From a virus: a DNA stretch of 64,000 bases. The DNA is taken from the IMG/VR virus record IMGVR_UViG_3300021442_000250, positions 1 through 64,000 of that record. One strand, written 5' to 3'. The notes under the pieces were generated by a model. It was not told where the DNA came from. It was given only the letters and a program-made list of their open reading frames with translations, and ran no database searches. Below are positions 10,163 through 51,100 of the stretch, piece after piece. The position numbers and the translations under genes are program-made. Every line of letters begins with the position of its first letter. The first letter of the stretch is position 1.

Positions 10163-10186
10163 TAATATAAACTAATAACGCATTGT

Positions 10187-10215: not shown

Positions 10216-10216
10216 G

Positions 10217-10224
10217 CATAAATA
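10217..10224 (+). promoter_or_regulatory. late promoter-like octamer CATAAATA
   Basis: Directly after the terminator at 10187-10215 and 19 bases before the ATG at 10244. Confidence 0.65.
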
Positions 10225-10243
10225 AGTATAATATAATAAGAAT

Positions 10244-10621: not shown

Positions 10622-10630
10622 GGATTGTAA

Positions 10631-11614: not shown

Positions 11615-11622
11615 GGATAAAA

Positions 11623-12752: not shown

Positions 12753-12769
12753 ATTATTCCCCAAAATAC

Positions 12770-12777
12770 CATAAATA
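12770..12777 (+). promoter_or_regulatory. late promoter-like octamer CATAAATA
   Basis: 16 bases before the ATG at 12793, with ribosome site AAAAGGAG (12781-12788) between. Confidence 0.65.
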
Positions 12778-12792
12778 CGTAAAAGGAGTACT

Positions 12793-20228: not shown

Positions 20229-22817
20229 ATGGCTAAAGAAACGATAAATGATGGTATTATACCTAATGATGGTCAAGGAGACAATCTTAGGTTAGGTGCC
20301 CAAAAAATAAATTCGAATTTTGATGAATTATATAATGCATTAGGAAATGGAGATACTTTATCTACTATTTCTTCTAATACAGTTACGGCAACAGGAGGTA
20401 ATAAAATTACTTTCTTCTTTGCAACTGAAGGAGATTTACCTAACGCAACAACGTATGACGGAATGTTCGCCCACGTACATGACGACAATACGAATAGAGT
20501 TGCTCACTCAGGTACTTGGGTTAAATTACTCCAAGAAACTTCTTCTATCGATATGTTATCAGATGTTGAGACTTCTAGTCCAGCACCAGGTGATGGTCAA
20601 GCGTTAGTATGGAATAATGCAAATAGTAGATGGCAGGCAGGAAGTATTGATGCAGGCGCATCAACTTTTGTGTCATTAACTGACACTCCAGCAAACTTTA
20701 GTGGAGCTAGTAGCAAATTTGTATCAATTAATTCTGGTGCAACTGCTATAGAATTTACTTCTCCTAGCATTAATAAAATGTCAGATGTAGATGTAACTAC
20801 TACGCCCCCAACAGCTGGACAAGTTTTAAAATGGAATGGTACAAATTGGATTCCAGGTGTTGATGCAACATCAGGAGGAGCAGGATCAGATGCAGATACT
20901 TTAGATGGTTTAGATAGTACATATTTTTTAAATTATAATAATATTACTAACAAAGGACAAAATTTTAGTAAATCTTTTAGCGTATCAGCGGCAACGTATA
21001 CACCTACAACTGGTGTAATGGAATTAACTATTGGTGCACATAATTTAATAATAGGTAACAAAATTAAGATTTCCCCAAATAGTTTAGGTTTTTCTTGTTC
21101 TTTTGATAATAATGTAGCAACTTCAACTTATCCTAGAGCATCAGGATCAGCGGCGCCGGGTGGAGCAGATTATTTTTACAATAAACCAATAGAAATTACA
21201 GCCGTTTCGGCAACAACAATTACAATGAATGTTGGAACTGGAAATGTTAAATCTTATAATGTATCAAATGCAGTATATACACCAGCAACAGGTAATATGG
21301 TATTAACAATTGGAACACATACTTTAGTAGCTGGTAATCATATTGATATTGCAACAGGTGGTTTAACTTTTAGTTGTGCCCTAGACGGACACGCTACTAA
21401 TACAGCATATCCAAGAGCATCTGGAAGTGCGGCACCTGGTGGTTACGATTACTTTTATAACAAACCATGTCAAATTACATCAGTAGGTGCAACAACAATT
21501 ACAATGAATGTTGGTATATCAAGTAATACAACAACACATACTTTTGTAAGTGCTATTAATGGTGCTATAACAAATTCAAATTCACATACATTTATAAGTG
21601 CTTCTGCTGATTGTGTAACATTTTCACAAACTTTTGTAGACTTATCAGACACTCCTTCAGATTATACAGGAGCGGCAGATAGATTTGTTAAAGTTAATTC
21701 ATCAGCTGATGGAATAGTATTTGCTGTTGGTACTTCAGGTGATAGTAATTTATCAGAACTTTCTGATGTAACAACAATAGGAGATTATTACAATGTATCA
21801 AATGCAGTATACACACCTGCATCAGGAGTAATTGTATTAACTATTGGATTACATAGTTTACAAGTTGGTCACAATATAAAAATTGCTTCAAACAGTTTAA
21901 CATTTACTTGTGCAATGGATAGTAATGCAACAGAACATACATATCCAAGAGGAAGTGGATCAGCTTACGCAGGTGGAAAAGATCCTGCATATACTTCAAC
22001 ATCTGCAATTACGGCAGTAGGTACAGATTCAATTACTGTAAATGTTGGTATATCTAGTAATACAACAGCACACACTTTTGTAAGAGCTAGTGACAATTGT
22101 ATATCAGTTACTGAAAAAACTTATAGTACATCAGCGGCAACATACACACCAGCAACTGGAGTAATGCAATTAACAATAGGAACCCATGCTATTAAGTCTG
22201 GACATTCTGTTATGATTGCGGCAAATAGTTTGACGTTTACGTGTGCAATGGATAGTCATAATACACAACATACATATCCAAGATCATCTGGCGGAAACGC
22301 ACCTGATGGAGTAGATTATGTATATAATAAACCAGTTTTAGTTACATCAACAACATCAACGACAATTACAATGAATGTTGGTGTATCTAGTAATACAACA
22401 GCACATACTTTTATAAGTGCTAATGCAAATAATGTAAAAGTTGCACCAACACATGGTGATTCATTATATTTCAATGGAGTATCTTGGGTAAAACAAAACG
22501 GACCAATATCAAGATATGAAATTACAAATGATGGAAACAACAATTATGTTTGGGAAGGACCTGGTTTTACAACTGGAACTAATGATCCAGTAATGTATAT
22601 GAACAGAGGTCATACATACGTCTTGAATAATAATTCGGGCGGCAGTCATTCATTTGAAATAAGAGTTAGTAATGGTGGTTCAGCATATACTAGTGGAGTA
22701 ACAGGTGATAAAACAAATACGCAAGTATTTAGAGTACCAATGGATGCACCTAGTACATTGTATTATCAATGTACAACTCATACAGCAATGGGTAACACAA
22801 TTAACATAGTGAGCTAA
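20229..22817 (+). CDS. repeat fibre protein with cupredoxin-like C-terminus
   Basis: 862 residues. The N-terminus INDGIIPNDGQGDNLRLGAQ then KINSNFDELYNALG is a typical phage fibre/baseplate attachment start. Four copies of a roughly 100-residue repeat follow (about 250-340, 343-442, 520-622, 632-731) with consensus YTPxTGxMxLTIGxHxL, TFTCAMD, YPRxSG, TTITMNVG and SSNTTAHTFxSA. The last 75 residues look like a cupredoxin: RGHTYVLNNNSGGSHSFEIR, FRVPMDAPSTLYYQCTTHTA, with potential type-1 copper ligands H807, C848, H851 and M854 (M spaced two residues after H instead of the usual four). Located among fibre genes; probably a fibre with a host-facing tip. Confidence 0.68.
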   Translation: MAKETINDGIIPNDGQGDNLRLGAQKINSNFDELYNALGNGDTLSTISSNTVTATGGNKITFFFATEGDLPNATTYDGMFAHVHDDNTNRVAHSGTWVKLLQETSSIDMLSDVETSSPAPGDGQALVWNNANSRWQAGSIDAGASTFVSLTDTPANFSGASSKFVSINSGATAIEFTSPSINKMSDVDVTTTPPTAGQVLKWNGTNWIPGVDATSGGAGSDADTLDGLDSTYFLNYNNITNKGQNFSKSFSVSAATYTPTTGVMELTIGAHNLIIGNKIKISPNSLGFSCSFDNNVATSTYPRASGSAAPGGADYFYNKPIEITAVSATTITMNVGTGNVKSYNVSNAVYTPATGNMVLTIGTHTLVAGNHIDIATGGLTFSCALDGHATNTAYPRASGSAAPGGYDYFYNKPCQITSVGATTITMNVGISSNTTTHTFVSAINGAITNSNSHTFISASADCVTFSQTFVDLSDTPSDYTGAADRFVKVNSSADGIVFAVGTSGDSNLSELSDVTTIGDYYNVSNAVYTPASGVIVLTIGLHSLQVGHNIKIASNSLTFTCAMDSNATEHTYPRGSGSAYAGGKDPAYTSTSAITAVGTDSITVNVGISSNTTAHTFVRASDNCISVTEKTYSTSAATYTPATGVMQLTIGTHAIKSGHSVMIAANSLTFTCAMDSHNTQHTYPRSSGGNAPDGVDYVYNKPVLVTSTTSTTITMNVGVSSNTTAHTFISANANNVKVAPTHGDSLYFNGVSWVKQNGPISRYEITNDGNNNYVWEGPGFTTGTNDPVMYMNRGHTYVLNNNSGGSHSFEIRVSNGGSAYTSGVTGDKTNTQVFRVPMDAPSTLYYQCTTHTAMGNTINIVS
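20977..22422 (+). repeat. four copies of the YTP/TFTC domain repeat
   Basis: Approximate copies: 20977-21250, 21256-21557, 21787-22095 and 22123-22422. They share long nucleotide stretches (for example TCAGCGGCAACATA and AGTAATACAACAGCACA), and further copies are in the genes at 28407 and 45171, so the repeats are related at DNA level and not just at fold level. Confidence 0.85.
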
Positions 22818-22823
22818 TAATTT

Positions 22824-23180
22824 ATGGCACAAAACGAACTTGGAATAGGTATAGAAGAATTAACAAATACACTTGGAGACTCTAGGTATTTTTATGGACT
22901 TAGAAGAACTAATACAGGTGAAGTATATCTTTCTAAAGTAGATTTATTAGAACTAAATGATGGTGTACAAATTAATAGACCCGGTGCTACACCAGGAAAT
23001 TATAAAGACTTTACAAGAGGTGAAGACTTTTATGATGGTAGAGACTCCCAACATAAAAAAACTTATGAAAATTTAGTATACGAACAATATAAATGGGACG
23101 GTAGAAATATTAATTATTATATTAACAATGAAGGTGAATTAGTATTAAGAGTTAATGAACAATATGTATACAATACATAA
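22824..23180 (+). CDS. small virion protein (YFYGLRRT family, copy 2)
   Basis: 118 residues, paralogue of 19751: RYFYGLRRTNTGEVYLSKVD, PGNYKDFTRGEDFYDGR, TYENLVYEQYKWDGRNINYY and a C-terminal GELVLRVN. It lacks the longer acidic tail of copy 1. It lies between two large fibre genes, six bases after the first, and its stop merges with the late promoter of the next unit. Function unknown; the position suggests a linker or cap for the adjoining fibre. Confidence 0.6.
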   Translation: MAQNELGIGIEELTNTLGDSRYFYGLRRTNTGEVYLSKVDLLELNDGVQINRPGATPGNYKDFTRGEDFYDGRDSQHKKTYENLVYEQYKWDGRNINYYINNEGELVLRVNEQYVYNT

Positions 23181-23204: not shown

Positions 23205-26200
23205 ATGGCAGATTTTAAAATAGATAGAATACGTTTTAAATGGAAAGGTGACTGGCTAGCTGGCACTCAGTACGTTAAAGATGATATCGTAAGATATGGT
23301 GCAAAAGTTTATACTTGCGTGGAAGTCCACTTCGCTGACTCCAATTTTTATAATGACTTAGATAACGCTACACCAAGATGGTCTCAAATGATGGACGGTC
23401 AGTCTTGGACTGGAAACTGGCAACCTAATAAATTTTATAAAATAGGTGAAATAGCAAAAGTTGGTGCAACACTTTATAAAGTTACTCAAGGTCACTTATC
23501 AAATGCAGATGCAAATAATGGAATATTAGGTGATGAATCTAAATGGGAATACTTTGCAAGAGGTGAAAAATGGACATCTATTTGGCAACCTAGTACACTT
23601 TATAGTGTAGGTGAAACAGTTGTTTATGGTGGATCAGTTTGGAGATGCGTTTCAGCACACACATCATCTACAGCGGTAGCTGGATTAGAATCTCATCAAG
23701 CTAATTGGATACAATATCATAGATCAGACAATTACAGAGGCTATTGGACACCTAACACAAGATATTATCCAGATGATATTGCAAGATATGGTGGTACAGT
23801 TTATAGAGCTTTATCTGGACATACTTCTGCTCCACATGATAGTTGGACAGGATTTACATCAGCAGATTATTCTACAAATTCTGCCAATGGTGCAGGTGCA
23901 ATTTTAAATATTTTCAAAGTTGATTCAACTTTTTATGCAAAATTTACAAATACAGGAACAAACTTTTCTGCTACAAATACTATTACTTTAGTAGGTAGTA
24001 AAGTTGGCGGTAATGATGGTGCAAATGATCTAGTAATAACAATTAGTACCGTAGATGGTAGCGGAGCAATTTCTACTTTTACTGTAAATGGTACAGCGGT
24101 TGCTGGAACTAATGGTTTAGAAGCCGATCAAGCTAAATGGCAAACAGTAATTGAAGGTATAGATTATATAGGCCATTGGGCAGAAGGAACAAAATATAAT
24201 AAAGGTTCATTAGTATCTTGGAGTCCGGGAATTTGGAAAGTAACAACTGATCACTGGTCAACAACTCCACACATGAATGAAACTAATTTTTCATTGTGGG
24301 TACCAGGTGCAGAATATGAAGGTTCTTGGGATTCTAATACATATTATCAAAAAGGTGATGTTGTACAATTTGGTGGATACAGTTATTCTGCTTTATTAAG
24401 CAATACAAATATTCAACCAGGTGTAACAGATAGTACAAATACTTGGGAATTATTAGCCGCAGGTTATAACCATCGTGGTGAATGGGATAGTACAGCTTCA
24501 TATAAAACTGGAGATATAGTTAGAGCAGGTGGTAATTTATTCATAGCAGTACAAGTTAACACAAATCAAGATCCAATTACAACTTTTGTTTATGATCCAG
24601 GTAGTGATGCTCCTGATCCTTGGCAATTATTAGTAACAGGTAAAGCATTTAAAGGTCCTTGGAAAGAAAGTGATACTAATGGAGCAATTACTTACTATGT
24701 AGGTGATGTAGTTACAGAAAAAGCAGACTTATATGCTTGTATAGAAACTCATGTTGCAACTTCTTCAGATGCTAAACCAACTTTAGACGAAGAAAGTGAC
24801 GAGGTTGGACCACTTTGGATTAGATTGGCACAAGGTGCTACAGGTAACATATTAGAAATAGATGGAGATTTAAAATCTCATTCTGGATCTGACGCAACAA
24901 GAATTGCAATAGGAACTTTTGGACAATTATTCAAAGTTAATGACGCTAATGATTATGGAATATGGGGAGATCATGATGTAGTTGCTAAAGTATTTTATGT
25001 TTCACCTTATGGAACAGATACACTAACAAGTGGTAAAAGTGTTGCAGGTCCATTTAGAACAATCAAATATGCTTGTGATTTTGTTCAACAAGATTTGGCA
25101 AATAGAACACCAGCTACTATAATTGTTAAAACAGGTGTTTATGAAGAAATTTTACCTATAACAGTTCCAGCAAAAGTTCATATTTGGGGAGACTTTACAA
25201 GACGTGGTGCAAACGTTAGACCTAAAACAGGTTACGAAGGAACAGATATGTGGCGTTTACGTGATGCAACAGGACTTGCAAATATAACAATGCAAGGTTT
25301 AACTGGTTCTTTAGGTTCTGAAAATCAATATGGAACAAAAAGACCAACAGGTGGAGCATATGTTTCTTTAGATCCAGGAAGTGGACCAGGTGATGGAACA
25401 GTTTGGATTACTTCTAAATCTCCTTATATTAAAAATTGTTCAATATTTGGGACAGGTTGTACAGGATTAAAAGTAGATGGTGACTTACATAATGGCGGAT
25501 ATAAATCTTTTGTTGCAAATGATTGTACACACTTTATTGAAAATGGTGTTGCGGCTTGGGTTAATGGAGATGCTAGAGTAGAATTTGTTTCAGTATTTGC
25601 TTATTGGGCCCATATAGGATATCTAGCAACAGCTGGTGGAAAATTTAGAGCAACAAATGGTAACTGTTCATATGGAGATTTTGGTGCAGTTGCAGAAGGA
25701 CTTTTAGCAAGTGAAAGTCCTTTAACAGGAAAAGTTAATAACCAATCACAAGAAGCACACATAGACAAAGTATATAATGATGAAAATGAAATTTTTGCTT
25801 TTGCTTTTGATCACGCTGGACAAAATTATACTTCAGCAAGTATAACAATTTCAGGATCAGGTGAAGGTGCGGCAGGAGCCATACGTTGGCCACAAATAAG
25901 AAATGGTGCAGTAAACAAAATTAGAGTTACAGGTAATAATGATTCTACAACACCAGGTGGTACAAATTATACCGAAGTATTAGGAAATGCTCAAATTGGT
26001 ACAAGTAAAGAAATTACGTTAGCACCTCAATATGCCGGAACAACAAATAATACTGTTGGACAAAGAATTTATATTTGGGAAGGTGCAGGTAGAGGACAAT
26101 ACGGATATATTTCTGGTTACAATTCTACAACAAAAGTTGCAACTGTTAAAAAAGAATTTGACGATACAGATGGTTGGCAACACTTCATGGGTGGTTACCC

Positions 26201-28358
26201 AATTGAAAGAATATTAGATGCATCTACAAAATATTCAATAGAACCTAGAATTACTATTTCTCCTACAGCTGGAAGTAGAAGTAATGTTAGCTATGGTTCA
26301 ACAGGAGAAATGCTATTAGGTGCTTCAGGAAAAATTGGAGCATCGGATATTACAACTGTAATAGGAAATGGTGTAGGTAATAGAACTACTGATGGTACAA
26401 GTTGGCTTGCCGCAGGTGGTATTCCTTCTAAAGATTGGAATAGTATTACTAAAACAAATAATTATTTTATAGCAACCGCGGCTGATGGAACAGTAATTAG
26501 ATCAGCTGATGGACAAAACTGGACAGATATTAGTGCAAATATTCCTTCAGATGTATTAAGAGCATCTGCTTGGGACGTTACTGAAGAAATTTTAATTATA
26601 GCATCTGAAACAGGAATGATATACAGATCAACAGATGAAGGTGCTACATTTAATTCAATTCAAGTTGAACTTTATGATGGTTCAACTCAAGTGTTTACAC
26701 AACTTGCTTGTGGTAATGGATTATTCATAGCCGCAAATGCATCAGGACAAACTTGGGAAAGTATGGGTGGTGGAACAACTTGGACTAAAGCCTCTAATAT
26801 GGGTGACTTTTTAATGGATACTAATTCTGGTTTACAAACAGTTCATAGATATAATTTGAAAAAATTAATGTTTGGTGGTGGTAAATTTATCGCATCAGTA
26901 CAAGATGCACCTGGTGATGAAAGTACAGTTGCTAATAAATTTTTAATATCAAATGCTAACGCGGCACAATCACAAACGTCATCTTCTTATAGTTGGTCAG
27001 AAAGTGATACGCCTCCACACGCAGGACCATATAATGATGTTGCATATTCTCAAGGAGTTTATGTTGCAATAACTGATGGTGGTGACCATGCATATAGTTT
27101 TGATGCATTTTCTTGGAAACAATTAGATTCAGCATTGGCAGGATCTTATAATGGTATAGTAGCTGGAAGAAATTCTACAGGCGGATACTTTATTCCATTA
27201 CGAACTGGTTCTCAGTCTGGTGCAGAAAAAATTCTAAAAGGTGCTACACCTTTAGCTAAAGTAGTTACAAATTCTTCAGCAATTAATAATATACAAATTT
27301 TAGATCCAGGTAGTGGATATTCTTCAGAACCTACAGTTACTATTACTGATAATTTAAACACTGCTGACGCAACATTTAAATCATTTGTACATAATGGAGT
27401 ACTTTCTCAACCAGAATTTACAAACAGAGGTACAGGATTTATAAATGTAACTGCAACTTTAAGTGGTGATGGTTTTGCAGATGAATATCAAACTGGAAGT
27501 TATTTAGAAGTTAAAGAAATGACAGGCAAACCAGGACCAGGAGCAATTTTATATATAGATGGAATTGATGACCAAGTTTATAGAATTACTCAGATTAATA
27601 AAATAACAGGAAGTTCTCCAAACATTGCCGCTCAGTTTAGAGTAACACCTAAAATAAAAGCAAATGAATCACCTGCTAATGATATAGCTATAACAATAAG
27701 AGAAAAATATTCTCAAGTTAGATTAACAGGTCATGATTTCTTAGATGTTGGAACTGGTAATAAATCTACAACTAATTATCCAGGTTTATACACTAGTGGT
27801 TATACACCAGGTTATGAACTTAAACAACGAAATGAAACAGTATCAAATGGAGGTGGAAGAGTATTTTATACTTCTACTGACCAAGATGGAAATTACAGAG
27901 TTGGAGAATTATTTGAAGTAGAACAGGCAACTGGAATAGTAACTCTAAATGCTGATTTATTTGACTTATCAGGTTTAACTGAATTAAGTTTGGGTGGAAT
28001 TGTAATAGGTGGAACTGAAGTTAGAATTGAAGAATTTAGTACTGATGGAACAATGGCGGCTAATAGTGATAGTGTTATTCCAACACAAAGAGCTATTTCT
28101 TTATACATAGGTTCTAAAGTTTCTGGCGGTGGAGCAAATCTTTCAACAAATGAAGTAAGAGCAGGACAAATTAAATTAAGAAATACAGAAATATTTAATG
28201 AAGCATATCCTACAAATGGAAAAGTTGTATTTTCTGGAGCGGTTTCTATAGCGTCTGTAAGTGGTAGTATCGTAGCAACTTCGTACTTTTTAGGGGCAGG
28301 ACCGGCTGAATTTTTAAATGAAGGTGGACCTGAAAGAGACGCATTATATGGTGAATAA
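23205..28358 (+). CDS. giant tail fibre with eight CBM-like repeats, beta-helix and propeller
   Basis: 1717 residues. Eight N-terminal repeats of about 50-55 residues (1-540), pattern FxWKGxWxxxTxYxxDDIVRYG then xVYxCxxxH, resemble chitin/cellulose-binding (CBM5/12-like) modules. Repeat 4 is interrupted by an inserted module (about 229-301). A parallel beta-helix follows (FYVSPYGTDTLTSGKS ... TGVYEEILPITVPAKV ... GTKRPTGGAYVSLDPGSGPG). At about nt 26380-27240 is a BNR/Asp-box-like propeller segment (RSADGQNW, RSTDEGATF, SMGGGTTW, SFDAFSW). The C-terminal domain (YSQVRLTGHDFLDVGTGN ... DQDGNYRVGELFEVEQATG ... STDGTMAANSDSVIPTQRA) is shared with the next gene. Probably a host-recognition fibre; catalysis not shown. 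Confidence 0.72.
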   Translation: MADFKIDRIRFKWKGDWLAGTQYVKDDIVRYGAKVYTCVEVHFADSNFYNDLDNATPRWSQMMDGQSWTGNWQPNKFYKIGEIAKVGATLYKVTQGHLSNADANNGILGDESKWEYFARGEKWTSIWQPSTLYSVGETVVYGGSVWRCVSAHTSSTAVAGLESHQANWIQYHRSDNYRGYWTPNTRYYPDDIARYGGTVYRALSGHTSAPHDSWTGFTSADYSTNSANGAGAILNIFKVDSTFYAKFTNTGTNFSATNTITLVGSKVGGNDGANDLVITISTVDGSGAISTFTVNGTAVAGTNGLEADQAKWQTVIEGIDYIGHWAEGTKYNKGSLVSWSPGIWKVTTDHWSTTPHMNETNFSLWVPGAEYEGSWDSNTYYQKGDVVQFGGYSYSALLSNTNIQPGVTDSTNTWELLAAGYNHRGEWDSTASYKTGDIVRAGGNLFIAVQVNTNQDPITTFVYDPGSDAPDPWQLLVTGKAFKGPWKESDTNGAITYYVGDVVTEKADLYACIETHVATSSDAKPTLDEESDEVGPLWIRLAQGATGNILEIDGDLKSHSGSDATRIAIGTFGQLFKVNDANDYGIWGDHDVVAKVFYVSPYGTDTLTSGKSVAGPFRTIKYACDFVQQDLANRTPATIIVKTGVYEEILPITVPAKVHIWGDFTRRGANVRPKTGYEGTDMWRLRDATGLANITMQGLTGSLGSENQYGTKRPTGGAYVSLDPGSGPGDGTVWITSKSPYIKNCSIFGTGCTGLKVDGDLHNGGYKSFVANDCTHFIENGVAAWVNGDARVEFVSVFAYWAHIGYLATAGGKFRATNGNCSYGDFGAVAEGLLASESPLTGKVNNQSQEAHIDKVYNDENEIFAFAFDHAGQNYTSASITISGSGEGAAGAIRWPQIRNGAVNKIRVTGNNDSTTPGGTNYTEVLGNAQIGTSKEITLAPQYAGTTNNTVGQRIYIWEGAGRGQYGYISGYNSTTKVATVKKEFDDTDGWQHFMGGYPIERILDASTKYSIEPRITISPTAGSRSNVSYGSTGEMLLGASGKIGASDITTVIGNGVGNRTTDGTSWLAAGGIPSKDWNSITKTNNYFIATAADGTVIRSADGQNWTDISANIPSDVLRASAWDVTEEILIIASETGMIYRSTDEGATFNSIQVELYDGSTQVFTQLACGNGLFIAANASGQTWESMGGGTTWTKASNMGDFLMDTNSGLQTVHRYNLKKLMFGGGKFIASVQDAPGDESTVANKFLISNANAAQSQTSSSYSWSESDTPPHAGPYNDVAYSQGVYVAITDGGDHAYSFDAFSWKQLDSALAGSYNGIVAGRNSTGGYFIPLRTGSQSGAEKILKGATPLAKVVTNSSAINNIQILDPGSGYSSEPTVTITDNLNTADATFKSFVHNGVLSQPEFTNRGTGFINVTATLSGDGFADEYQTGSYLEVKEMTGKPGPGAILYIDGIDDQVYRITQINKITGSSPNIAAQFRVTPKIKANESPANDIAITIREKYSQVRLTGHDFLDVGTGNKSTTNYPGLYTSGYTPGYELKQRNETVSNGGGRVFYTSTDQDGNYRVGELFEVEQATGIVTLNADLFDLSGLTELSLGGIVIGGTEVRIEEFSTDGTMAANSDSVIPTQRAISLYIGSKVSGGGANLSTNEVRAGQIKLRNTEIFNEAYPTNGKVVFSGAVSIASVSGSIVATSYFLGAGPAEFLNEGGPERDALYGE

Positions 28359-28373
28359 GGATTTAATAGTAAT

Positions 28374-28381
28374 GATAAATA
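28374..28381 (+). promoter_or_regulatory. late promoter-like octamer GATAAATA
   Basis: 26 bases before the ATG at 28407; AAAGGA lies between. Confidence 0.65.
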
Positions 28382-28406
28382 AAAGATATAAAAGGATTTA
28401 ACAAAA

Positions 28407-31400
28407 ATGGCTGAGTTTAAACTAGGTAGAATTAAGTTTGTTTGGAAAGGTTCCTGGGCAACTACTACAACTTATTATGTTGATGACGTAATAAGATATG
28501 GTGGTAGAACTTACAATTGCGTAACTAATCACACATCTGGTACATTTCAAACTGATTTAGGTGCTGTAAAATGGCAACTAATGTCAGATGGTATAGAGTG
28601 GAAAAGTGAGTGGGTTGCAAATACAACTTATAAACCAAATGATGTAGTAAAATACGGTGGTTACATTTATCTTGCTAACACTGGACATACCTCAGCGGCA
28701 ACAGAAGCTTTAGGATTAGAAGCTGATCAATCTAAATGGGATTTATTCATAGAAGGTTTTGATTGGAAATCTGATTGGACAATTTCTACAAGATATAAGA
28801 AAAACGATTTAGTAAAATATGGTGGTTCAGTTTATCTTTGTATAACAGAACACACATCAGATAACACAACAGCAGTTGGTCTAGAAGGTCAACAAGCTAA
28901 ATGGGAAATTTTTGGAAAAGGTTTTGTTTGGTCAGGCGACTGGGCAATCAATTCTAGATATAAAGTTAATGACACCGTTAGATATGGTGGACAAATTTAC
29001 GTTGCTATAACTGGACATACTTCAGCGGCAACTGAAGCAGATGGTTTAGAAGCCAACCAAGGACAATGGCAAGCCTTACACAAAGGAATTGAATTCAAAG
29101 GTGACCATGCAACAGCAACAAGATATAAAGTAAATGATGTTGTAAAATATGGTGCAAACATTTGGATTTGTATAACACAACATACATCATCAGGAATTTT
29201 ATCAGCCGACGAAGCAAAATGGAATGTTTTAATTCCAGGTATTGAATTTGAAGATACTTGGAGCAACTCTACAAATTATCAACCAGGTGACTTTGTTACT
29301 TACGGTGGATATAGTTATGTTGCAGATAGAAATAATATTAATAAACTTCCACCTGATGAATCAGACGACTGGACTTTATTCGTAACAGGATTTAATTTAA
29401 GAGGTGACTATAATGGCGCAACTGCATACAAACAAGGTGACGTTGTTAGAGTTGGCGGTTTCACTTACCTTGCAATTGCAGATACTACAGGTAATAGACC
29501 ACCTAATGTAACTAAATGGGACAAACTTAACGAAGGTTTATATTGGAAAGGTGCTTGGACAAATGCAACTGACTATGACAAAGGAGATATAGTAAGAGGT
29601 ACAACAAACACTACTACAAGTTATCTTTGTATAACAGAAAACACATCAAATAATGTTGGTCCATCAACAATTAATCAACCAGACTATCCACCAGGAGCAG
29701 GTGTTGATACTAGTGCATGGCAATTATTGTCAGGTGGAGCAGAAACTACTGTATTATCTACAAAAGGTGACATTTTAATTTATGGTCAATCAGGTCCAGC
29801 AAGATTACCAATTGGTAAAGCAGGACAAACTTTAGTTGTAAACTCAGCAGGTGACTTACCTGAATGGGGATACTTTGGTTCAATCGATCAAGTTTATTAT
29901 GTAGGACCTGCTGGACAAGACAAACCTTCTCCAGATGCAGGAACAACTCTTGATAAACCTTGGAAATCTTTAAGATATGCTTTACATGGCATTGAACAAG
30001 GACCAAGAAATCCTCAAGGAACTTATTTGTTAGAAAGAAACAAAGCATTCATTCAAGAAGAAACTTTAGCTTGGATTAATGCACAAATTTCAGGAAATAC
30101 TTCACCATTTACAAATGCTTACACATACGACGCTGTTAAATGTAGAAGAGATGCAGGATTTATGTTAGATGCACTTTTATATGATTTAAGACATGGTGGA
30201 AATGAAAAATCAAGATATGCAACAATTAAAATTTCAACTCAAACTGAATTTGCAAATCATAAAGATGAATTAACAGCTTATCTTAATAGATTAGTTTATA
30301 TTTCACAACAAGTTGTAGCCAATAATGCAGGCTACTCTGCTTTACAAGCCACAGTTCCTCATTATATTAATAATGATTATGTATCTGAAGCGGCTGTATC
30401 AGGTGAAATTGCAAGTTATGTAAAAATTGCAACAGATTGTCTTGCGGCAGGAAATATAGCAGGAGTACCTGCAGAAGAAGTTCCACAAACTACATTGTTT
30501 GCTAAAAGCGGAACATATGAAGAAGTATTACCTCTTTCAGTTAAAAAAGGATTAGCAATTGTAGGAGATGAATTAAGATCAACAATTGTTAAACCAGCAG
30601 GTCAAGTTACAGGTTCAAGCGATACAGTATTCACTTTAGCAGGTATTGGAAGAATGCAGGCTATTATATCTGATATAGTTACAAATGCTTCTGTAACACC
30701 AACACCAGTAGGCGGAGTTATATCTTTTACAACACCAGCACCAGATTTAGGTTTTGTTAACGGAACTTATACTAACGTTGCATTAACAGGTGGTAGTGGT
30801 TCTGGATGTACAATGGATGTAACTGTATTATCATACACAATTACATCTCTTACTATTAATAATCCAGGACAAAATTATGCAATTAATGATAACTTAACAA
30901 TTCCAGCGGCAACAATTGGTGCAGATGGTATAACAGTAGTTGGTAGTATTACAACAGGAAATAATTTAACACAAAATACATCCAACCCAGCAGGTTCAGG
31001 TGCGGCAGGAACAGCGGCGGCGGCAATTGCACAAAATATTTACGATCATATAGATTTCAAAGTTAATGCAAATGGAGCCGATCCAACATTAACAGGTACA
31101 AATACTGCTCAAGCAGATGCAGGTTATTCAGATGCAAGATTAAGATTATTAGCAAATATGGATTTTGTTGCATTAGAAGTTGCAGAATTTGTACAAAGAG
31201 CAAATCCATCTCATAGTAACTTTAAAACTAAATGTTTGGCAGATGTTAAAATTTATCTTCAAGCAATTATGGATGACTTACAATATACTGGAAATTACAA
31301 ATCATTAAAAGCATCAGATGCCTATATTAATTCTAGACTTTCTACTGGTTCAAGTGCAAGTGATATGTTCTATTGCAGAAATGCAACTGGAATTAGAAAT

Positions 31401-34400
31401 ATGACAGTTCAAGGTTTAATAGGAACATTAGGAACAGATCAATATAGCACATCAGCGGCAACATATACACCTGCAACAGGAGAAATGGTATTAACTATAG
31501 GAAGCCATAGTATTCCTGTAGGGGAATCTGTTATGATTGCATCAAATAGTTTAACATTTACTTGTGCTGAAGATAGTCATGCTACTCAACATAGCTATCC
31601 AAGATCATCTGATCCTTATTACAATAAAGCAATTTTAATTACGGCTGTAGCCGCAACAACAATTACAGTAAACGTTGGTATATCAAGTAATACAACAGCA
31701 CATACTTTTGTAAATGCTACTGAGGAAAATGTAACATTAGCTTCTGCAAATGAATTTGGTACAAAAAGACCAACAGGTGGTTCTTTTGTATCATTAGATC
31801 CAGGCTGGGGACCAACACACGAAGAAGTATGGATTACTTCTAAATCACCTTATATTCAAAACGTAACAACATTCGGAACAGGATGTACTGGATTAAAAGT
31901 AGACGGTGCATTACACGATGGTGGTTTTGATTCTGTTGTTGCAAATGACTTTACGCAATTATGCGATGATGGTATAGGTGCATGGATTACAAATTTAGGT
32001 AGAGTAGAACTTGTATCAGTATTTTCTTATTACGCACACATTGGTTATCTATCAGAAAATGGTGGAAAACTTCGTGCTACAAACGGTAACTCATCTTATG
32101 GAGATTTTGGTTGCGTGGCAGAAGGAGTTGATTCAGCAGAAACTCCTACAACAGCAACAATTGATAACCATAGTGAAGATGCAGATGTTGCCAATGTAAT
32201 GACAGACGGTCAAGGAATATTAGCATTTGAATATAAAAATGCTGGAAGACAATATTCTAGTGCTACACTTTCTATATCAGGAGATGGTTATGGAATTACA
32301 GGAGAAACTCCAACTTATAATACTGGTGGTGTTTATAAAATTAGATTATTAGAAACTAATACAGTAACAAGTAACCTTGGTGGTGCGACATATATGTCTG
32401 CTACTAACAATGGACAAACAGGTTCAGCTACACAAATTACAATAGCTAACGCAGATAGTAATGCCAGTGGTGCATACACAGGTATGGCAATTTGGATTAC
32501 AAAAGGTAAAGGAGTTGGTCAATACGCATATATTGATGCTTATGATTCTGCAAGTAAAGTCGCAACTGTTAAAAAATATTCAGATGGTTTAGCAGGTTGG
32601 GAAAGACTTGGCGGATTATCAGTTGAAACTCTTTTAGATGCTACAACAGAATATACTATAGAACCTAGAGTAGTTATTGGTGCTCCACAAAACGATGGAA
32701 GTACAACAGTTAGACAAGCAGTTGCAAGAGCAATTGTAACTTCTGAAAAGATTTCTTCAATAAGAATTATAGATTGTGGTGCAAGTTATACTTCAGCACC
32801 AACAGTAACATTTACTGATCCTAATAATACTATAGATGCTCCAGTACAATCATTCATAGATGATGGTGTATTAGGTCAACCTACTTTCTCTGCATATGGA
32901 ACAGCTTATGATACTGCAAGTGTAACAATTACAGAATCACCTACAGGTAAAAACATAACAGGTATTACACAAGGAACTGTTGCTGTTGTTACATCAGCAG
33001 GACACAATTTAGTTTCAGGAACTAAAGTAACGTTTACAGGTGTTGTTGGAATGACAGAATTAAACACTGGTGTATGGTATTACATTAAAACATTAACAGT
33101 AGACACATTTGGAGTTTACACTAATGATGATTTAACTGCTGGATTAAACACTACAAACTTTACAGCATATAGTTCAGGTGGAGTTGCAACACCACAAGGT
33201 GGATTTAGAGATGAATTCCAAACAGGAAGATATATTCAAGTAGAAGGTATGTCAGATGTTCCACAAACAGGATCAAATGTAGAATTTGATGGAATTTCAA
33301 CTACAACATATCCTTATGCATATACACTTTTAACTGCAAACAAAGAATACATGAAAGATGAAGTAATAGCATGGTTTAATACAACTTATCCAGGAATACA
33401 CAACGCCGCTCAAAATACTAAATGCGAAAGAGATGTTGGATATGAAATTGATGCAATGGCATTCGATATAAAATATGGTGGTAATACAGAAACTATAAGA
33501 ATTGCTAAAGCATACTGGCAAGGTGTTACTTCTCAATTAGCGGCAGGCGAACAAGTATACGCAGTTGCAGTTAATAATAAATTAAAAGAAATGATTAATG
33601 ATTACATTATGGATAATGTAGCCTGGTCAACAACACAAAGTCCAGTCGTTACATCACAAACAACTAATTCTAATAATGGTGAGTTAGGTGTAAAAGACAA
33701 ATTTACAAATTTAACTAAAACTTTAAATGATGTAATTGAAAATGGTTTAACTTCTGTACCAACTACACAAGGATTAAACAATCCTTACTTTAAATTAGTA
33801 AGTGTACAAAAATTACGAGGTACTCAAGCACCATATTCAGCATTATTACAAATTAGTCCACAGATGTCAACAGCTCAAGCTCTAGCACATGGTACTGGGA
33901 TAACAGTTAAACTTAGATATTCTCAAGTTAGATTAACAGGACATGACTTCTTAGATGTAGGAACTGGTAATCAAGCATTGACAAATTATCCTGGAACGCC
34001 AAACAGAACTAACGATCAAGAAAGAGAAAGTGTTGAAAGAGGTGGTGGTAGAGTATTCTTTACTGCAACTGATCAAGACGGTAACTTTAGAGTTGGTGAC
34101 TTGTTCTCAGTACAACAGGCGACTGGTATTGCATCATTAAATGCAGATGCATTTAACATTTCAGGATTACAAGAACTTCAGTTAGGAGATTTAACATTAG
34201 GTGGAACTTCTGCCTCTGTTAACGAATTCTCTACTGACGGTACATTTGCGGCAAATAGTGACAAAATTGTACCAACACAAAGAGCGATAAGAACATATGT
34301 TTCTTCACAAATTGGTGGCGGAGCAAGTGCAATTAACGTAAATACTATTACTGCTGGTCAAATTGTGATCACAGCTAATACTATAAATACAACAACAGGT

Positions 34401-34487
34401 GCAAGTATTCAAATAAATAGTGGTGTGCAATTCAAGAAAGGTGTTGCAGGAGCACCACTGGCAATGAATTACTTGATACATAGTTAA
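28407..34487 (+). CDS. giant tail fibre, paralogue of the 23205 fibre with inserted modules
   Basis: 2026 residues. Same plan as the preceding gene: eight CBM-like repeats (about 1-445), beta-helix (VYYVGPAGQDKPSPDAG ... SGTYEEVLPLSVKKGL ... GTKRPTGGSFVSLDPGWGP), then the shared C-terminal domain (YSQVRLTGHDFLDVGTGN ... DQDGNFRVGDLFSVQQATG). It is longer because of in-frame additions: helical modules (NKAFIQEETLAWINAQ ... CRRDAGFMLDALLYDLRHGG and NKEYMKDEVIAWFN ... CERDVGYEIDAMAFDIKYGG), a mixed module near nt 30660-31340, and one YTP repeat at 31443-31752. It lacks the propeller of its neighbour. Binding of host surface glycans is inferred from the repeats. Confidence 0.72.
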   Translation: MAEFKLGRIKFVWKGSWATTTTYYVDDVIRYGGRTYNCVTNHTSGTFQTDLGAVKWQLMSDGIEWKSEWVANTTYKPNDVVKYGGYIYLANTGHTSAATEALGLEADQSKWDLFIEGFDWKSDWTISTRYKKNDLVKYGGSVYLCITEHTSDNTTAVGLEGQQAKWEIFGKGFVWSGDWAINSRYKVNDTVRYGGQIYVAITGHTSAATEADGLEANQGQWQALHKGIEFKGDHATATRYKVNDVVKYGANIWICITQHTSSGILSADEAKWNVLIPGIEFEDTWSNSTNYQPGDFVTYGGYSYVADRNNINKLPPDESDDWTLFVTGFNLRGDYNGATAYKQGDVVRVGGFTYLAIADTTGNRPPNVTKWDKLNEGLYWKGAWTNATDYDKGDIVRGTTNTTTSYLCITENTSNNVGPSTINQPDYPPGAGVDTSAWQLLSGGAETTVLSTKGDILIYGQSGPARLPIGKAGQTLVVNSAGDLPEWGYFGSIDQVYYVGPAGQDKPSPDAGTTLDKPWKSLRYALHGIEQGPRNPQGTYLLERNKAFIQEETLAWINAQISGNTSPFTNAYTYDAVKCRRDAGFMLDALLYDLRHGGNEKSRYATIKISTQTEFANHKDELTAYLNRLVYISQQVVANNAGYSALQATVPHYINNDYVSEAAVSGEIASYVKIATDCLAAGNIAGVPAEEVPQTTLFAKSGTYEEVLPLSVKKGLAIVGDELRSTIVKPAGQVTGSSDTVFTLAGIGRMQAIISDIVTNASVTPTPVGGVISFTTPAPDLGFVNGTYTNVALTGGSGSGCTMDVTVLSYTITSLTINNPGQNYAINDNLTIPAATIGADGITVVGSITTGNNLTQNTSNPAGSGAAGTAAAAIAQNIYDHIDFKVNANGADPTLTGTNTAQADAGYSDARLRLLANMDFVALEVAEFVQRANPSHSNFKTKCLADVKIYLQAIMDDLQYTGNYKSLKASDAYINSRLSTGSSASDMFYCRNATGIRNMTVQGLIGTLGTDQYSTSAATYTPATGEMVLTIGSHSIPVGESVMIASNSLTFTCAEDSHATQHSYPRSSDPYYNKAILITAVAATTITVNVGISSNTTAHTFVNATEENVTLASANEFGTKRPTGGSFVSLDPGWGPTHEEVWITSKSPYIQNVTTFGTGCTGLKVDGALHDGGFDSVVANDFTQLCDDGIGAWITNLGRVELVSVFSYYAHIGYLSENGGKLRATNGNSSYGDFGCVAEGVDSAETPTTATIDNHSEDADVANVMTDGQGILAFEYKNAGRQYSSATLSISGDGYGITGETPTYNTGGVYKIRLLETNTVTSNLGGATYMSATNNGQTGSATQITIANADSNASGAYTGMAIWITKGKGVGQYAYIDAYDSASKVATVKKYSDGLAGWERLGGLSVETLLDATTEYTIEPRVVIGAPQNDGSTTVRQAVARAIVTSEKISSIRIIDCGASYTSAPTVTFTDPNNTIDAPVQSFIDDGVLGQPTFSAYGTAYDTASVTITESPTGKNITGITQGTVAVVTSAGHNLVSGTKVTFTGVVGMTELNTGVWYYIKTLTVDTFGVYTNDDLTAGLNTTNFTAYSSGGVATPQGGFRDEFQTGRYIQVEGMSDVPQTGSNVEFDGISTTTYPYAYTLLTANKEYMKDEVIAWFNTTYPGIHNAAQNTKCERDVGYEIDAMAFDIKYGGNTETIRIAKAYWQGVTSQLAAGEQVYAVAVNNKLKEMINDYIMDNVAWSTTQSPVVTSQTTNSNNGELGVKDKFTNLTKTLNDVIENGLTSVPTTQGLNNPYFKLVSVQKLRGTQAPYSALLQISPQMSTAQALAHGTGITVKLRYSQVRLTGHDFLDVGTGNQALTNYPGTPNRTNDQERESVERGGGRVFFTATDQDGNFRVGDLFSVQQATGIASLNADAFNISGLQELQLGDLTLGGTSASVNEFSTDGTFAANSDKIVPTQRAIRTYVSSQIGGGASAINVNTITAGQIVITANTINTTTGASIQINSGVQFKKGVAGAPLAMNYLIHS
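31443..31752 (+). repeat. YTP/TFTC domain repeat inserted in beta-helix
   Basis: One copy of the repeat described at 20977-22422. In the paralogous fibre (23205) the flanks GSLG-xxQ and YGTKRPTGG are contiguous; here GTLGTDQ and EFGTKRPTGG are separated by this copy, so it is an insertion. Confidence 0.85.
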
Positions 34488-34523: not shown

Positions 34524-34841
34524 ATGGCTTCAGGAAGATTAGGTAAAGCAGACTTGGTAGCCAGTACCGATACCGTAGTTTACACGGTCCCTGCGGCGAC
34601 TTTTACCGTAGCTACTGTGTCTATCTGCAACAGAGGTAACCAAGTAGTCACTATCAAAATGGCAGTGGCAGATGCGGCAACTCCAGACGCTTCAGAATAC
34701 GTTGAACATAACGTTGAAATTCTGTCAGCAGGAGTTTTAGAACGTTCAGGTTTAGTGATGTCAGCTGGTCAAAAACTAGTTGTATGGTCATCAGGGGCTA
34801 ACGTAGCCGCGGTTGCAATGGGTATTGAAACTGGAATATAG
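34524..34841 (+). CDS. small beta-sandwich virion protein (family A, copy 3)
   Basis: 105 residues, beta-rich, no Cys except one in ATVSICNRGN. Order of features as in the 11623 and 19420 proteins: VVYTVPAATFTVATVSICN, a mid-chain VEHNVEILSAG, SAGQKLVVWSS, and a hydrophobic end. Strong purine-rich ribosome site AAAAAGGAGATAAA upstream. Codon usage is less AT-rich than in the giant fibre upstream, which together with the strong site suggests a highly expressed structural protein. Confidence 0.55.
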   Translation: MASGRLGKADLVASTDTVVYTVPAATFTVATVSICNRGNQVVTIKMAVADAATPDASEYVEHNVEILSAGVLERSGLVMSAGQKLVVWSSGANVAAVAMGIETGI

Positions 34842-34867
34842 ACTAAAACGAAAAACAGTCTAAAATG

Positions 34868-34875
34868 CATAAATA
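34868..34875 (+). promoter_or_regulatory. late promoter-like octamer CATAAATA
   Basis: 29 bases before the ATG at 34904. A small TAGACT/AGTCTA hairpin (34839-34862) lies just upstream and overlaps the previous stop. Confidence 0.65.
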
Positions 34876-34903
34876 ATTAAAATAAGGAAAAAAGGACAAA
34901 AAA

Positions 34904-36280: not shown

Positions 36281-36288
36281 GATAAATT

Positions 36289-37293: not shown

Positions 37294-37308
37294 GGAGTAA
37301 ATAGTATT

Positions 37309-45170: not shown

Positions 45171-48100
45171 ATGGCTAAAAAGAAATTAAACAATTATATA
45201 TTTCAAACAGGAATTCCTAAAAACGGGAATAATTATCCTGTAGCTCATAATCTTATCGATAAAAATAAAGAGTGGATTAAAGATGAAATGATGGGTTATA
45301 TCGCTGAGAAAACATCTCAAGATACAGCCGCTGATTTATATCCTAATATATCTAACAGAATTACAAACAATAAAACTTTTATTAAAGATGAAGTATGGGC
45401 CTGGGTGGCGGCACAAGTTGCAGGTAACATTGCTCCATTTGCCGGTTATACTAAAACTGAAGACACTGTAGAAACAGATGTAGAAGCAGTAGTAGAAGCT
45501 ATTGCACGTGACGTTAGATATGGTGGAAATGAAAATTTAAGACTTCAATCAGGTACATATTTTATAGATGGTGTACTCCAATTAGCTAACAGTGGAGATC
45601 CTGAAATCGCATATTGGGGTTATATGCGAACACTTATAAAAGATTCTATTTTACCTGGAGGTGCATTTGGTACTTTACAAACTAGTACATCTTACACTCC
45701 TACAGGAGCAACATATACGCCAACAACTGGTGATATGATTTTAACTATTGGTGCTCACACTTTAACAGTTGGACAATCTGTTAGAATTAGTACACTTGGT
45801 TTAACTTTTACGTGTGCAATGGACAACAATGCAACAAATCACAGTTATCCAAGAGCATCTGGTTCAGCCGCACCCGGTGGTGCTGATTTTTTTTATAATA
45901 AACCAGTTAAAGTTACAGCTAAAGATTCAGTATCAATTACTATAAACGTAGGAGTATCAAGTAATACAACAGCACATACTTTTGTAAGTGCTACTTCTGG
46001 TAGTGTACAAAGTGGAACAGTACAAGATTTAACAGGAACAAATGCTGAAAGTGCCGGTGTTACTGACTTTGATACAAAATTAGGACAATTAATTGAAACA
46101 GTTGACAATGGAATTGTTCAATTACCTGCTCTTACAAGTAGTTCTTATGTATTTGAAAATTTTACTTATAATTCAGATAAGTGCGATAGAGATTATGATT
46201 TTATTCTTGATGCATATCTTAATGATTTACGTTACAATGGTAACAAACAAACAAGATTTATTGCTTCTAAATTCTGGGTAGGAACAACTCCTCAAATAGA
46301 TGGAGATAGACAACCAGAAGTTGCCGCAACAGATTGGGTTAGAGATTTATTAATTAATTACGTTTTACCAAATAAATCTGTAACTTTCACACCAACAAAT
46401 GTAGTATACACTCCGACAACTGGAGTAATGGTATTAACTATTGGATCTCATCCTATGTTGGTTAATGAATATATTAGAATTAATACAAACAGTTTAACAT
46501 TTACTTGTGCAATGGATAGTCATGCGACTAACCATACATATCCTAGAGCGTCTGGATCAAATGCACCTGGTGGGGCTGACTATGCCTATAATGAACCAGT
46601 TAAAATTACATCAGTAAGTGCAACATCAATTACTGTAAACGTAGGAACATCAACTAATACATCAGCACATACTTTTATAAGTGCTACTACAGGTGCAGTA
46701 ACACAATCAAAACAAAATCCAGTTGTTACTACTCAATTTACAGATGGAAATAATTCTGAATCAAACGCGACAAATAGAATAGTAACATTGTCAAATATTA
46801 TTTCTGATGTAAAAGCAAATGGTTTAGATAATTTACCAGCATTAGAAAAAAATGAAGTATCTAGTTTAAAAGTTGTTAATCCAGGTGGACAAATTAATCA
46901 TGAAGATATTTTATTAATTACTAACACTACAAGAAATACTGTATTATATAATTTTGCTGATGCAAGTCTTGGCTGTACAGTTGAATATGAAAAAGAAACT
47001 GACGATGATTTTAAAGCATTCTTACACGGTAGTGATACTGTAACTACAATATTTTTAAATGCTGATACTTCTAGCCATACAGTTGATGATGCAGTATCAA
47101 TTTTTGTAGAAGGCGGCGAACTTAGAACAAGACCATTTGATTTTGGTACTGACGCAATTGAAAGATTTAGAATTGCAAAACCACAATCAATGATAGATGC
47201 TGACTTTGAATATGGTCTTCAGCCAACCAAGTGGCAAGCAATTGGAACACAAAGAGGTTATCCATCAATTTACGAAGTACCGGGAACAGATATAGATATC
47301 GCATCAGTAACAACTGACGCATCAACTGGTACAGCAGGAATAGGTGCATCATTAATAACTGTAACAACAGTTGGCCCTCACGCCATGTTATCAGGTGATC
47401 CTTTAACTATTATAGGTTTTGCAGGATCAGGTGTAGAAGGGGCAGGTAGAGCACAAGGTTCATTTGTTGTAAATTCTGTAACATCTAATAAAATTTTTAC
47501 TTACTATGCAAAAGCAAAAGTAGGAACAGCAAACGGTCAAACAATATCAACTAAATTTACTCAAATGCGTAAAGGTGCATTTTATACTGGAGCAGATTTA
47601 GGAGAACCATCGTTCTCTGTTGTATCACAAGGATCAAGTGGAGCAGTTGCAACTTCATTAAAAGTATTAGCAGGACAATCAATTGTTCCATTTACAGGAG
47701 CAACTCCTCCAACAGGAGCTCCAGTTACAGGAACAGGTATCGCAACAGGTACTCAAATTACAGCAATTACTGGTACAGGTGGAGCTTTAGTTAGTCCAAA
47801 AATTAAAGGAGATTATGCTTCAGGTGTAACTCAAGTTGAAGTTGTAGATCCGGCAGGTATATTACAAAATTCTGTATTGGATAGAGGAGATGGTTTTGGT
47901 ACAAATATTATAAACGTTAATGGAGCAGTATTAACTTTATCAAGTCCTTTACAATCAAGTTTAGTAGGTGATCAAACAGTTTATTCAAATGTTGCTGGAT
48001 TAAACAGATCACCAAATGGTACAAGTGCAACTTGGCAAATAAGTTGGACAGGTGGTGCTTATACTGTTGTACAAGGAATAACTGGAACAAATTATCAACT

Positions 48101-51100
48101 TGGTGATGCAATAACAATTCTTGGAACGGCTTTAGGTGCATCATCTCCAGCAAATGATGTAACAATTAATATAGACAGTGTAGATACTGGAGGAGAAATT
48201 CTTACTTTCAGTTATTCAGGAACTGCATTTGATGGTACAGGATCAGCTTCAGACATTACTGGTAGCGTACCAGGTGGCGTAGGCACAGGTGGAGAATTTA
48301 ATATTACTAAAACTAATACTTCATATGCGGTAGCATTAGCAAGTCAAACCTTTACACTTTTAAATCCTCAATATGCAGGTGGCGGTGGTACTGGATCTAT
48401 TTGGGACATAACATTCACAAATGGTGTTTATAATACTGTTACAATGTCAAACGGTGGATCTGGTTTTATTGTTAATGATACAATTAGAATTGCAGGAACA
48501 GAATTTGGTGGACAAGGCGATCTGAATGAATTATTAATTAGAGTTACTGGTGTAAGTTCAGGAGTAATAACAAGTCATTCATCTGCAGGTACGGCTCCAG
48601 ATGCAACAGTAATATATACAAATCCAGCATTTACTACAAGTGGTTCAGGTACATTAGCAACATTTAGCGTAACTAGAACAGGAACGGCTTATACAGCAAT
48701 TATTACAGCGCCAGGAACTAATTATGGAGTTTCTGATACTATAACAATTGATGGTGGAAATTTAGGTGGTGCATCAACAACAAATGACTGTACATTAACC
48801 GTTGCAACTATTGATGGTTCAGGTGGAATAACAAGTGTAACTCCTACTGGTTTAGCTGTTAATACAAAGACTATTGCTGGAATAACATCAGGTAATAACT
48901 ACGTAGGTTCAAATGCTCAATTTAGTGTTACTAATCCAGTGGGTGGTAGCTATACTAGTATTACAGCAACAAATGTAGGACAACATTATACATTAGGTCA
49001 AGAATTAACAATATTAGGAACACAATTAGGAGGTTTATCTCCTACACACGATTTAACAATTACATTGGCAACAGCGTTAGGAGCCAATGATGCAATTGTA
49101 CAAGGTAATTGGACTATTTCTGGTAATGCTACAGATGGTCCCGGTACATTAAATTATGTAGCAAATGACATATTAAAAATTAACGGTACAGCATTAGGCG
49201 GAGCTAATATTACAAATGATGCATACGTTAGGGTGTCTAGCGTAGACGCAGAAGGGTCGATTACAGGAGTAGCTGTCACTGGAACCGGAACAGATGGTGA
49301 TGTAACATATACAGAAGTACCAGAATGGGATGGATCAACTATACCAGGATGGACTACAAGTTTAGCAGGAACAGGTGCAACATTTACAATTCAAAGAATA
49401 GGAACGGCTTATACAGCTACAGTAGTAGCAACAGGTTCGGGATTTGTAGGGACAGAAGCAATAACAATTTTAGGAACACATTTAGGTGGTGCAACACCAG
49501 CCAATGATGCTTCATTTACAATTGATACTGTTAATGCAGGAGCAGTTGCTACTATAAGTGCAGTAACTGGAACAGCGGCTAATACTCAATTATACACAAA
49601 CGCACCTACAGAAAAAAGAGTAGGTCAAGGTGAAGCATTTGATATTAGTATCACAGGTGGAAATTATACTGTAGATCAAATTTCACAGGCAGGTACAAAT
49701 TTCTGGGTAGGACAAATAGTAGTAATTCCTGGAACATCTTTATTTGGTTCTTCACCAGCAAATGATTGTTCAATAGAAATTACATCAGTAGATGCAGTAT
49801 CAACTGGTGGAATTACAGGTACAACTGTAACTGGAAGTGCTAACACTGGTACAGGTGCCGCAGGAACAATGTTAATTGGTACTAATAGACCACAAACAGG
49901 TATTGGAGCAGTATTCTATATAACTAGATCATACACAGACGATTCATCAACTACATATACAGAAGCAACAGTTTCTAGTTTAGGAACAGGTTATAATGTA
50001 GGAGATCAAATTGTTGTTAGTGGAACAGCATTAGGCGGAGGAACTCCTGCACATGATTGTAATGTTACTGTTCAAGCTATAAATTCATCAGGTGGTATAT
50101 CACAATGTACTCACTCAGGTAGTGCAGTAACAGGAACAGGTGTAACAGTTTATTCATCTCTTACTTTATCAGATGTAACTACGCAAGTTTTACCAGCATC
50201 ATCTACAATAACTTATAGTGCAATAGCAACTATACAAGTACAATTTTTAACTCCACATGGTTTAGTTCCAGGAGATGGTTTCTTAGTAACTATTGGATCT
50301 GATGATGGAAGTAATAATCACTTATTAGCATCAGGACCATTCCTTGTTACAGAACTTCCAGCAACTAATCAATTAAGATTTCAAGCTAGATCACCAGGAC
50401 AAATTACAGATCTTAACTGGTCTGGATTCGTATATGTTAGACCAGATTCATTCTTTGTACATAGACCATTTGATGGAGGAGTACAATTAGGAACAGGTGG
50501 ACCACAACACGGTGCACAGGCAATAAGACAATCTAAAAAATATATTAGATATCAATCAGGTAAAGGTATCATGTATACAACAGGTGCCTTGTTTGCTCCA
50601 TCTTATGATATTTTAAATGTTGTAGCAGATGGTAAAACAGTTGGATCTGTAATATCTGTTACTACAGATGAAGTTGACCACGGATTACAAGTTGGTGCAA
50701 CTATAACATTAATTGGAATAGCACAACAAGAATTTAATGATGATTATATAGTAATTCAAATTGTAAATGAAAGAACATTTAAAGTTACTGCTAATAGTTC
50801 TTTAAGTATGTTAACTCCAGAATTTAAAGATCAACCACAAGTATCATTAAAATATTGGAATGGTGCAACTGTAAGATCAGGTATATTTGATGATCAAAAT
50901 GGAATTTTCTGGGAATATGATGGTGTAAACTTAAATCTTTGTCAAAGAACAGCTACAAGACAATTAGCAGGAACAATTTCAGTAAATCCTGATTCTAATA
51001 CAATTACAGGACTAGGAACAAGATTTAGAGAACAATTAAAAGCAGGTGATAGAATAGTAATAAGAGGTATGACTCACGTTGTATCTAATGTTGCAGATAA

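Follow-up and report, generated by a model that had tools for sequence, protein, structure and literature searches.

The locus analysed here raises the question of how two neighbouring giant tail fibres of a single phage came to differ by large blocks, and whether these blocks are inserted, lost or exchanged. The stretch examined, hereafter the window, covers 64,000 nucleotides (positions 1 to 64,000) of an 88,030-base virus record (IMG/VR record IMGVR_UViG_3300021442_000250) and corresponds to a part of a marine T4-like myovirus genome that encodes structural proteins. The fibres are flanked there by T4-like structural matches, i.e., portal, major head protein, baseplate wedge, connector and tail sheath. 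The best matches of the portal were found in jumbo phages (Agrobacterium phage Atu_ph07 and Pseudomonas phage PA5oct, about 48-53% identity). Given this kinship, the 88-kb record probably represents part of a longer genome. An original prediction had described the two fibres as differing by clean in-frame domain insertions and had proposed a domain-swapping system for host-range change. Our analysis favours, with a probability of roughly 0.78, a reading in which old sister fibres share one scaffold and modules have been gained, lost and copied among four virion genes through ordinary recombination.

The pair of fibre genes is common to about 80 related loci in IMG/VR, with empty and filled sites among them. 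Because megablast of the 20-40 kb region against isolate phages returned 0 matches, the comparison relies on IMG/VR contigs. Blocks were compared between the window sequences and 15 fibre A and 18 fibre B relatives, a diverged and reorganised locus (L052) being set aside. All relatives are metagenome contigs, in which repeated modules may be misassembled.

Two sister fibres on one scaffold

Fibre A (P0002, 1717 aa; 23205..28358, + strand) and fibre B (P0001, 2026 aa; 28407..34487, + strand) each carry eight CBM5/12 repeats, a beta-helix and a C-terminal domain, to which a propeller is added in A and several inserted modules in B. Both matched the tail fiber protein profile phrog_9851 (E = 8e-178 for A and 7.5e-194 for B). 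The two proteins could be aligned from end to end, with large gaps between conserved stretches. The beta-helix core (fibre A residues 706-1018, 25320..26258; this and all fibre modules below lie on the same + strand) was 51% identical between A and B, and the C-terminal YSQVRLTGH domain (27705..28136 in A, 33915..34328 in B) 50-64% identical. Within the clade, identity of the C-terminal domain reached 97-99%. The gaps that correspond to blocks recurred among relatives with nearly identical edges. The alignments confirmed the open reading frames, repeats and gaps, and with them the claim that A and B differ by discrete in-frame blocks on a common scaffold; gradual divergence without blocks is ruled out.

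Each of the predicted blocks was recovered by pairwise alignment. In fibre A, these were the LGG module within CBM repeat 4 (residues 212-304, 23838..24116) and the BNR/Ycf48-type beta-propeller (about residues 1019-1345, 26259..27239). In fibre B, they comprised helical module 1 (about residues 532-704, 30000..30518), a mixed block (about residues 729-985, 30591..31361) made of an SGSG beta unit (767-849) and a helical unit (about 851-985), the YTP module (residues 1010-1112, 103 aa, 31434..31742) and helical module 2 (residues 1631-1790, 33297..33776). The YTP, LGG and SGSG units were left unmatched by a Pfam search. An 87-aa FCCH-like module of fibre B (residues 1512-1598, 32940..33200; Pfam E1_FCCH, E = 1.5e-11), which has no relative elsewhere within the window, had been overlooked in the original prediction.

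The scaffold itself followed two lines of inheritance, the N- and C-terminal regions of each fibre B being nearer to other fibre B proteins than to the fibre A of the same genome. This clustering by fibre type provides a vertically inherited background on which the modules change place.

Filled and empty sites among relatives

When the same loci were compared in related phages, as had been proposed, empty and filled sites were found among close relatives. The LGG module was replaced by a clean gap in the fibre A of L062, L041, L079, L060 and L049. Likewise, the fibre B of L062, L041, L065, L060, L087 and L049 showed clean gaps of 83 aa at the SGSG unit and of 87 aa at the FCCH-like module. Helical module 2 was present in the window, L013, L011, L070 and L065, most relatives having a clean 160-aa gap. 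Other units were constant: no well-aligned fibre B relative lacked helical module 1 or the helical unit of the mixed block, and all full-length fibre A proteins had a segment of 300-405 aa at the propeller site, identifiable as a propeller except in L049. LGG, SGSG, YTP, the FCCH-like module and helical module 2 thus vary among relatives, whereas the propeller is old in A, and helical module 1 and the mixed-helical unit are fixed in B. Judging from these alignments, a block carried by one sister only is not always a recent insertion.

Such constant segments are what would be expected if the blocks were ancestral and the differences between A and B reflected mainly differential loss after duplication, with little or no module movement. 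Some gaps, such as that of YTP in L011, may indeed be losses, the outgroup L070 having the YTP block. However, a single family occupies different scaffold points, YTP being found after GSLG, after VWI or within the propeller and SGSG units at several points among relatives, which goes beyond what loss alone can produce, and the fibre B propeller of L041 is nearest to the fibre A propeller of its own genome. Differential loss is thus unlikely to account for most of the pattern. Altogether, nine module families were found at more than 20 positions across fibres A and B. For instance, the fibre A of L048 carries a helical block at the helical module 1 site of fibre B and an SGSG unit in the GTKRP loop, and LGG, FCCH or DQSD modules lie between the CBM repeats in the fibre A of L065, L079 and L049.

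Alleles, sites and possible origin of the YTP module

The fibre B of L011 and L009 was 91% identical to that of the window, the sole large gap corresponding exactly to the 103 residues of YTP. The fibre B of L014 and L015 had the same length as in L011 and L009 (1923 aa) and likewise lacked the module. The surrounding 26 kb were syntenic, with roughly 83-99% DNA identity and a dip to 72-88% that coincides with the connector's own YTP array. Scanning for the empty-site sequence identified four contigs from four metagenomes, and scanning for the filled right edge four contigs from three metagenomes. As each state was observed in several contigs and metagenomes, neither rests on a single assembly.

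The position of the module also varied. In fibre B of the window type, YTP follows GSLG; in L016, L025 and L051, which form a separate clade, it follows ...VWI, some 30-40 scaffold residues past the site used in the window, and the near relatives L028 and L035 have a plain loop at the VWI site. The propeller of fibre A is split in L070 and L032 by an array of 558 aa made of five YTP copies. On the tree, YTP at residue 1010 needs two changes, and either gain or loss would fit several blocks.

The best candidate donor of the fibre B module in the window was YTP copy 4 of the connector (20229-22817), with 77% DNA identity. It was rejected as a recent donor, this value being no closer than that between copy 4 of the window and copy 4 of L070. 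The L070 array aligns with the copy 1-copy 2 pair of the connector, and its copies 2 and 4 group with connector copy 1 (support 100/99). An origin of the array within its own genome was also rejected, its copies being no closer to the connector of L070 than to that of the window. The LGG module of fibre A shared 35-38% identity with the copies in 45171-52883. At the sequence level, most blocks are too diverged for a donor to be named.

Modules shared with other virion proteins

It had been predicted that most blocks have relatives elsewhere in the window, and these were retrieved in two further virion genes. The baseplate wedge/tail-fibre connector (20229..22817, + strand, 862 aa; phrog_677, T4 gp9/10 N domain) contains four YTP modules, and a 2570-aa virion protein (45171..52883, + strand; phrog_5838) contains two YTP, eight LGG and two helical modules. 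Further helical relatives lie within fibre B itself, and none was found in the window for the propeller. The YTP, LGG and helical modules also vary outside the fibres, in the connector, the 2570-aa virion gene or both. Close relatives have connectors with 4, 2 or 1 YTP copies, corresponding to versions of 862, 642 or 530 aa. Module numbers of the 2570-aa protein also differ among relatives, the L098 version (64% identity) lacking both YTP modules and having one extra helical unit. Modules are thus present or absent as discrete units, each at several sites and in several genes. Discrete edges, domains common to proteins of different function and high identity outside the block were all observed, as in a domain mosaic. 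For giant virion proteins of this kind, length and annotation are poor guides to orthology.

A more ambitious proposal is that these four virion genes draw on a within-genome module pool, the sister fibres being refitted repeatedly by intragenomic recombination. If true, surface binding could change fast without genes being acquired from other phages. We regard this proposal as tentative and on balance doubtful. 

Among the observations behind the preferred reading is the propeller of L041. In the window, the fibre A propeller was related by profile to Ycf48 and BNR-repeat hydrolases (E about 6e-6), and Foldseek placed Ycf48 structures first (E = 6e-12, TM-score by target length 0.66). In L041, fibre B has a propeller as well, at the propeller site of fibre A, with 57% identity to the fibre A propeller of its own genome, none of the other propellers compared exceeding 35%. 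Tree support for this pair was moderate (81/85). The A-B identity of L041 exceeded that of all other pairs compared in the core (64% against 45-58%) and in the strand domain (58% against 26-48%), and was ordinary in the CBM repeats (47%). Such a profile has the appearance expected of a conversion tract covering core, propeller and strand. The L041 propeller was therefore probably copied between sister fibres within the genome, as read from these identities. This evidence is good, and comes from a single lineage. A trace of exchange between the sisters may also lie just 3' of YTP, where the YTP-bearing fibre B alleles have a fibre-A-like stretch of about 12 codons (AAT...AGA CCA ACA GGT) at which most other listed fibre B alleles differ. 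This resemblance, although short, is suggestive of an exchange with fibre A.

Insertion points and probable route of exchange

The AlphaFold model of fibre A covers residues 590-1510, with a mean pLDDT of 78. For fibre B, the helical units were modelled with a pLDDT of about 80 and the SGSG and YTP beta modules poorly, with a pLDDT under 50. Due to this weakness in the beta modules, insertion points were read off the fibre A model. The sites of helical module 1, the mixed block, the second YTP site (pLDDT under 50) and the L070 array fell in loops, and the first YTP site corresponded to a short predicted strand. The plug-in points would thus be mostly predicted loops, in a mapping that reads a few sites rather than testing them statistically.

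Clean module edges, together with a 7-bp direct repeat (ACATTAG) that brackets YTP in the fibre B of the window and L070, might evoke a dedicated mechanism moving the modules, such as a diversity-generating retroelement, an invertase or a site-specific recombinase cassette. However, edges vary by module and by site, no recurring target site was seen at module edges, and ACATTAG is one 7-bp case. Moreover, families of reverse transcriptase (PF00078), resolvase/invertase and tyrosine recombinase were unmatched in the 88-kb record, itself a fragment, with positive controls. A dedicated mechanism is therefore highly improbable. The repeats in the 20-53 kb region resemble diverged protein-coding modules. 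Short homologies at the block edges had been proposed as a check; ACATTAG flanks YTP, but no common sequence stood out when the edges of the other junctions were inspected by eye, and we give the repeat little weight as evidence of short-homology joining. What remains of the proposed domain-swapping system is the insertion or loss of modules at tolerated points and their reuse; no dedicated machinery was found in the 88-kb record, general recombination being sufficient.

Under the preferred reading of ordinary recombination on an inherited scaffold, A and B would keep the N-terminal CBM5/12 repeats, the beta-helix stalk, the strand domain and the C-terminal domain, and small self-contained domains would plug into a limited set of scaffold points. 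Modules would turn over among the two fibres, the baseplate connector upstream of them and the 2570-aa virion protein. As for the route, we infer that homologous exchange through the scaffold flanks would pass alleles with or without a module from phage to phage, and at times from one sister gene to the other, and that rarer short-homology joining would create new insertion sites.

Possible role of the modules

Judging from the families to which they belong, the modules may act as accessory surface-binding or spacer domains, whose turnover would tune adsorption to changing hosts. The change of host range put forward in the original prediction is likewise suggested by analogy with the protein class, i.e., a tail fibre with CBM repeats. 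A less favoured but serious possibility is that turnover is real and the modules are neutral or structural spacers, host range being determined by another part of the phage, such as the small genes with tail fibre matches directly after fibre B (34524-35236). The mid-fibre variation and conserved C-terminal domain seen here, the reverse of the conserved N-terminus and variable C-terminus usual in receptor-binding proteins, would agree with this possibility. Against it, CBM5/12 repeats and BNR/Ycf48-like propellers are typical of binding proteins.

Comparison with known systems

The PHROG 9851 matches to both fibres span several stretches (E below 1e-177), and isolate relatives annotated as tail fibres occur in Prochlorococcus phage P-SSM2, Synechococcus phages S-CAM1 and S-CAM3 and Pelagibacter phage Mosig. 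The profile has 1092 positions, whereas the window fibres reach 1717 and 2026 aa through added modules, and no isolate phage covering 80% of fibre A or B was found. A literature search on carbohydrate-binding or propeller-bearing fibres of jumbo phages yielded nothing specific. Accretion of Ig-like domains is known for many virion proteins, on which these small beta domains are often proposed to be adhesive; in contrast, YTP, LGG and SGSG sit inside the beta-helix or the CBM array and not at protein ends.

That phage receptor-binding proteins are domain mosaics is established. In tail fibres and baseplate proteins, domains are common in varied combinations and shuffling is ongoing (Smug et al., 2023; PMC10684548). 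The sections of that article considered here deal with representative protein profiles across phages, within-genome twins being untreated in them and the word "paralog" absent, whereas the present case concerns filled and empty sites in genes of about 91% identity and one instance of probable copying from sister to sister. Related marine T4-like phages, the pelagimyophages and cyanomyophages, are likewise known to have a hypervariable region, described as a host recognition cluster with variable tail-fibre and sugar genes (PMC7029224). This is in line with the window, which combines the fibres with carbamoyltransferase and sugar-epimerase genes. However, the variation described in those phages affects whole genes or cassettes, whereas in the window it affects domains inside genes, and the window portal is nearest to that of jumbo phages such as Atu_ph07. 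In comparison with these systems, what is new here is the resolution: genes of high similarity are seen with and without a module, predicted plug-in points are defined on a shared beta-helix scaffold, four virion genes have modules in common, and the sister fibres show one instance of probable copying. Close counterparts that differ by a single domain at a known position constitute natural before/after pairs, through which the role of a single domain, the stalk points that accept inserts and the movement of modules within a genome can be addressed directly.

Allelic variation of the fibre genes

Directly 3' of the YTP module of fibre B, the YTP-bearing alleles of this tail-fibre gene carry fibre-A-like codons at 31743-31778 (AAT..AGA CCA ACA GGT), while most other fibre B alleles read AAC..CGT CCA NNN GCA at this position. 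These codons are possibly a trace of exchange with the sister gene, fibre A. In the contig IMGVR_UViG_3300003937_000005, the fibre B region (9007-14854) is 99.97-100% identical to fibre B of the window outside one 233-bp deletion, by which most of the YTP module is lost and the frame is disrupted, yielding 1037 + 762 aa. This deletion represents either a broken allele or an assembly artefact.

Two further contigs come from one source metagenome: IMGVR_UViG_3300031886_000025, which has the same sequence as the window in these genes, and IMGVR_UViG_3300031886_000033, a relative whose fibre A contains a 558-aa YTP array. Therefore, differing module sets may coexist in a single sample.

Genes surrounding the fibres

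Small genes matching phrog_8997 (unknown function) precede both the baseplate wedge/tail-fibre connector gene (19751-20209) and fibre A (22824-23180). From their position, they are possibly fibre assembly factors. Shortly downstream of the fibre genes, three paralogues with products of 323-334 aa stand in tandem (35300-38280). They are marked by a 123-nt repeat, and the first two match phrog_4205 (unknown function). Further on, a 129-nt direct repeat with 81% identity (39312-39440 and 42062-42190) connects the genes at 39063 and 41831, between which lies a Nol-like carbamoyltransferase (40015-41844). Finally, a nucleotide-sugar epimerase and a protein matching a bifunctional heptose kinase/adenyltransferase are encoded on the minus strand at 53263-55914, the same arrangement as in marine T4-like host-recognition islands, where sugar genes adjoin virion genes.
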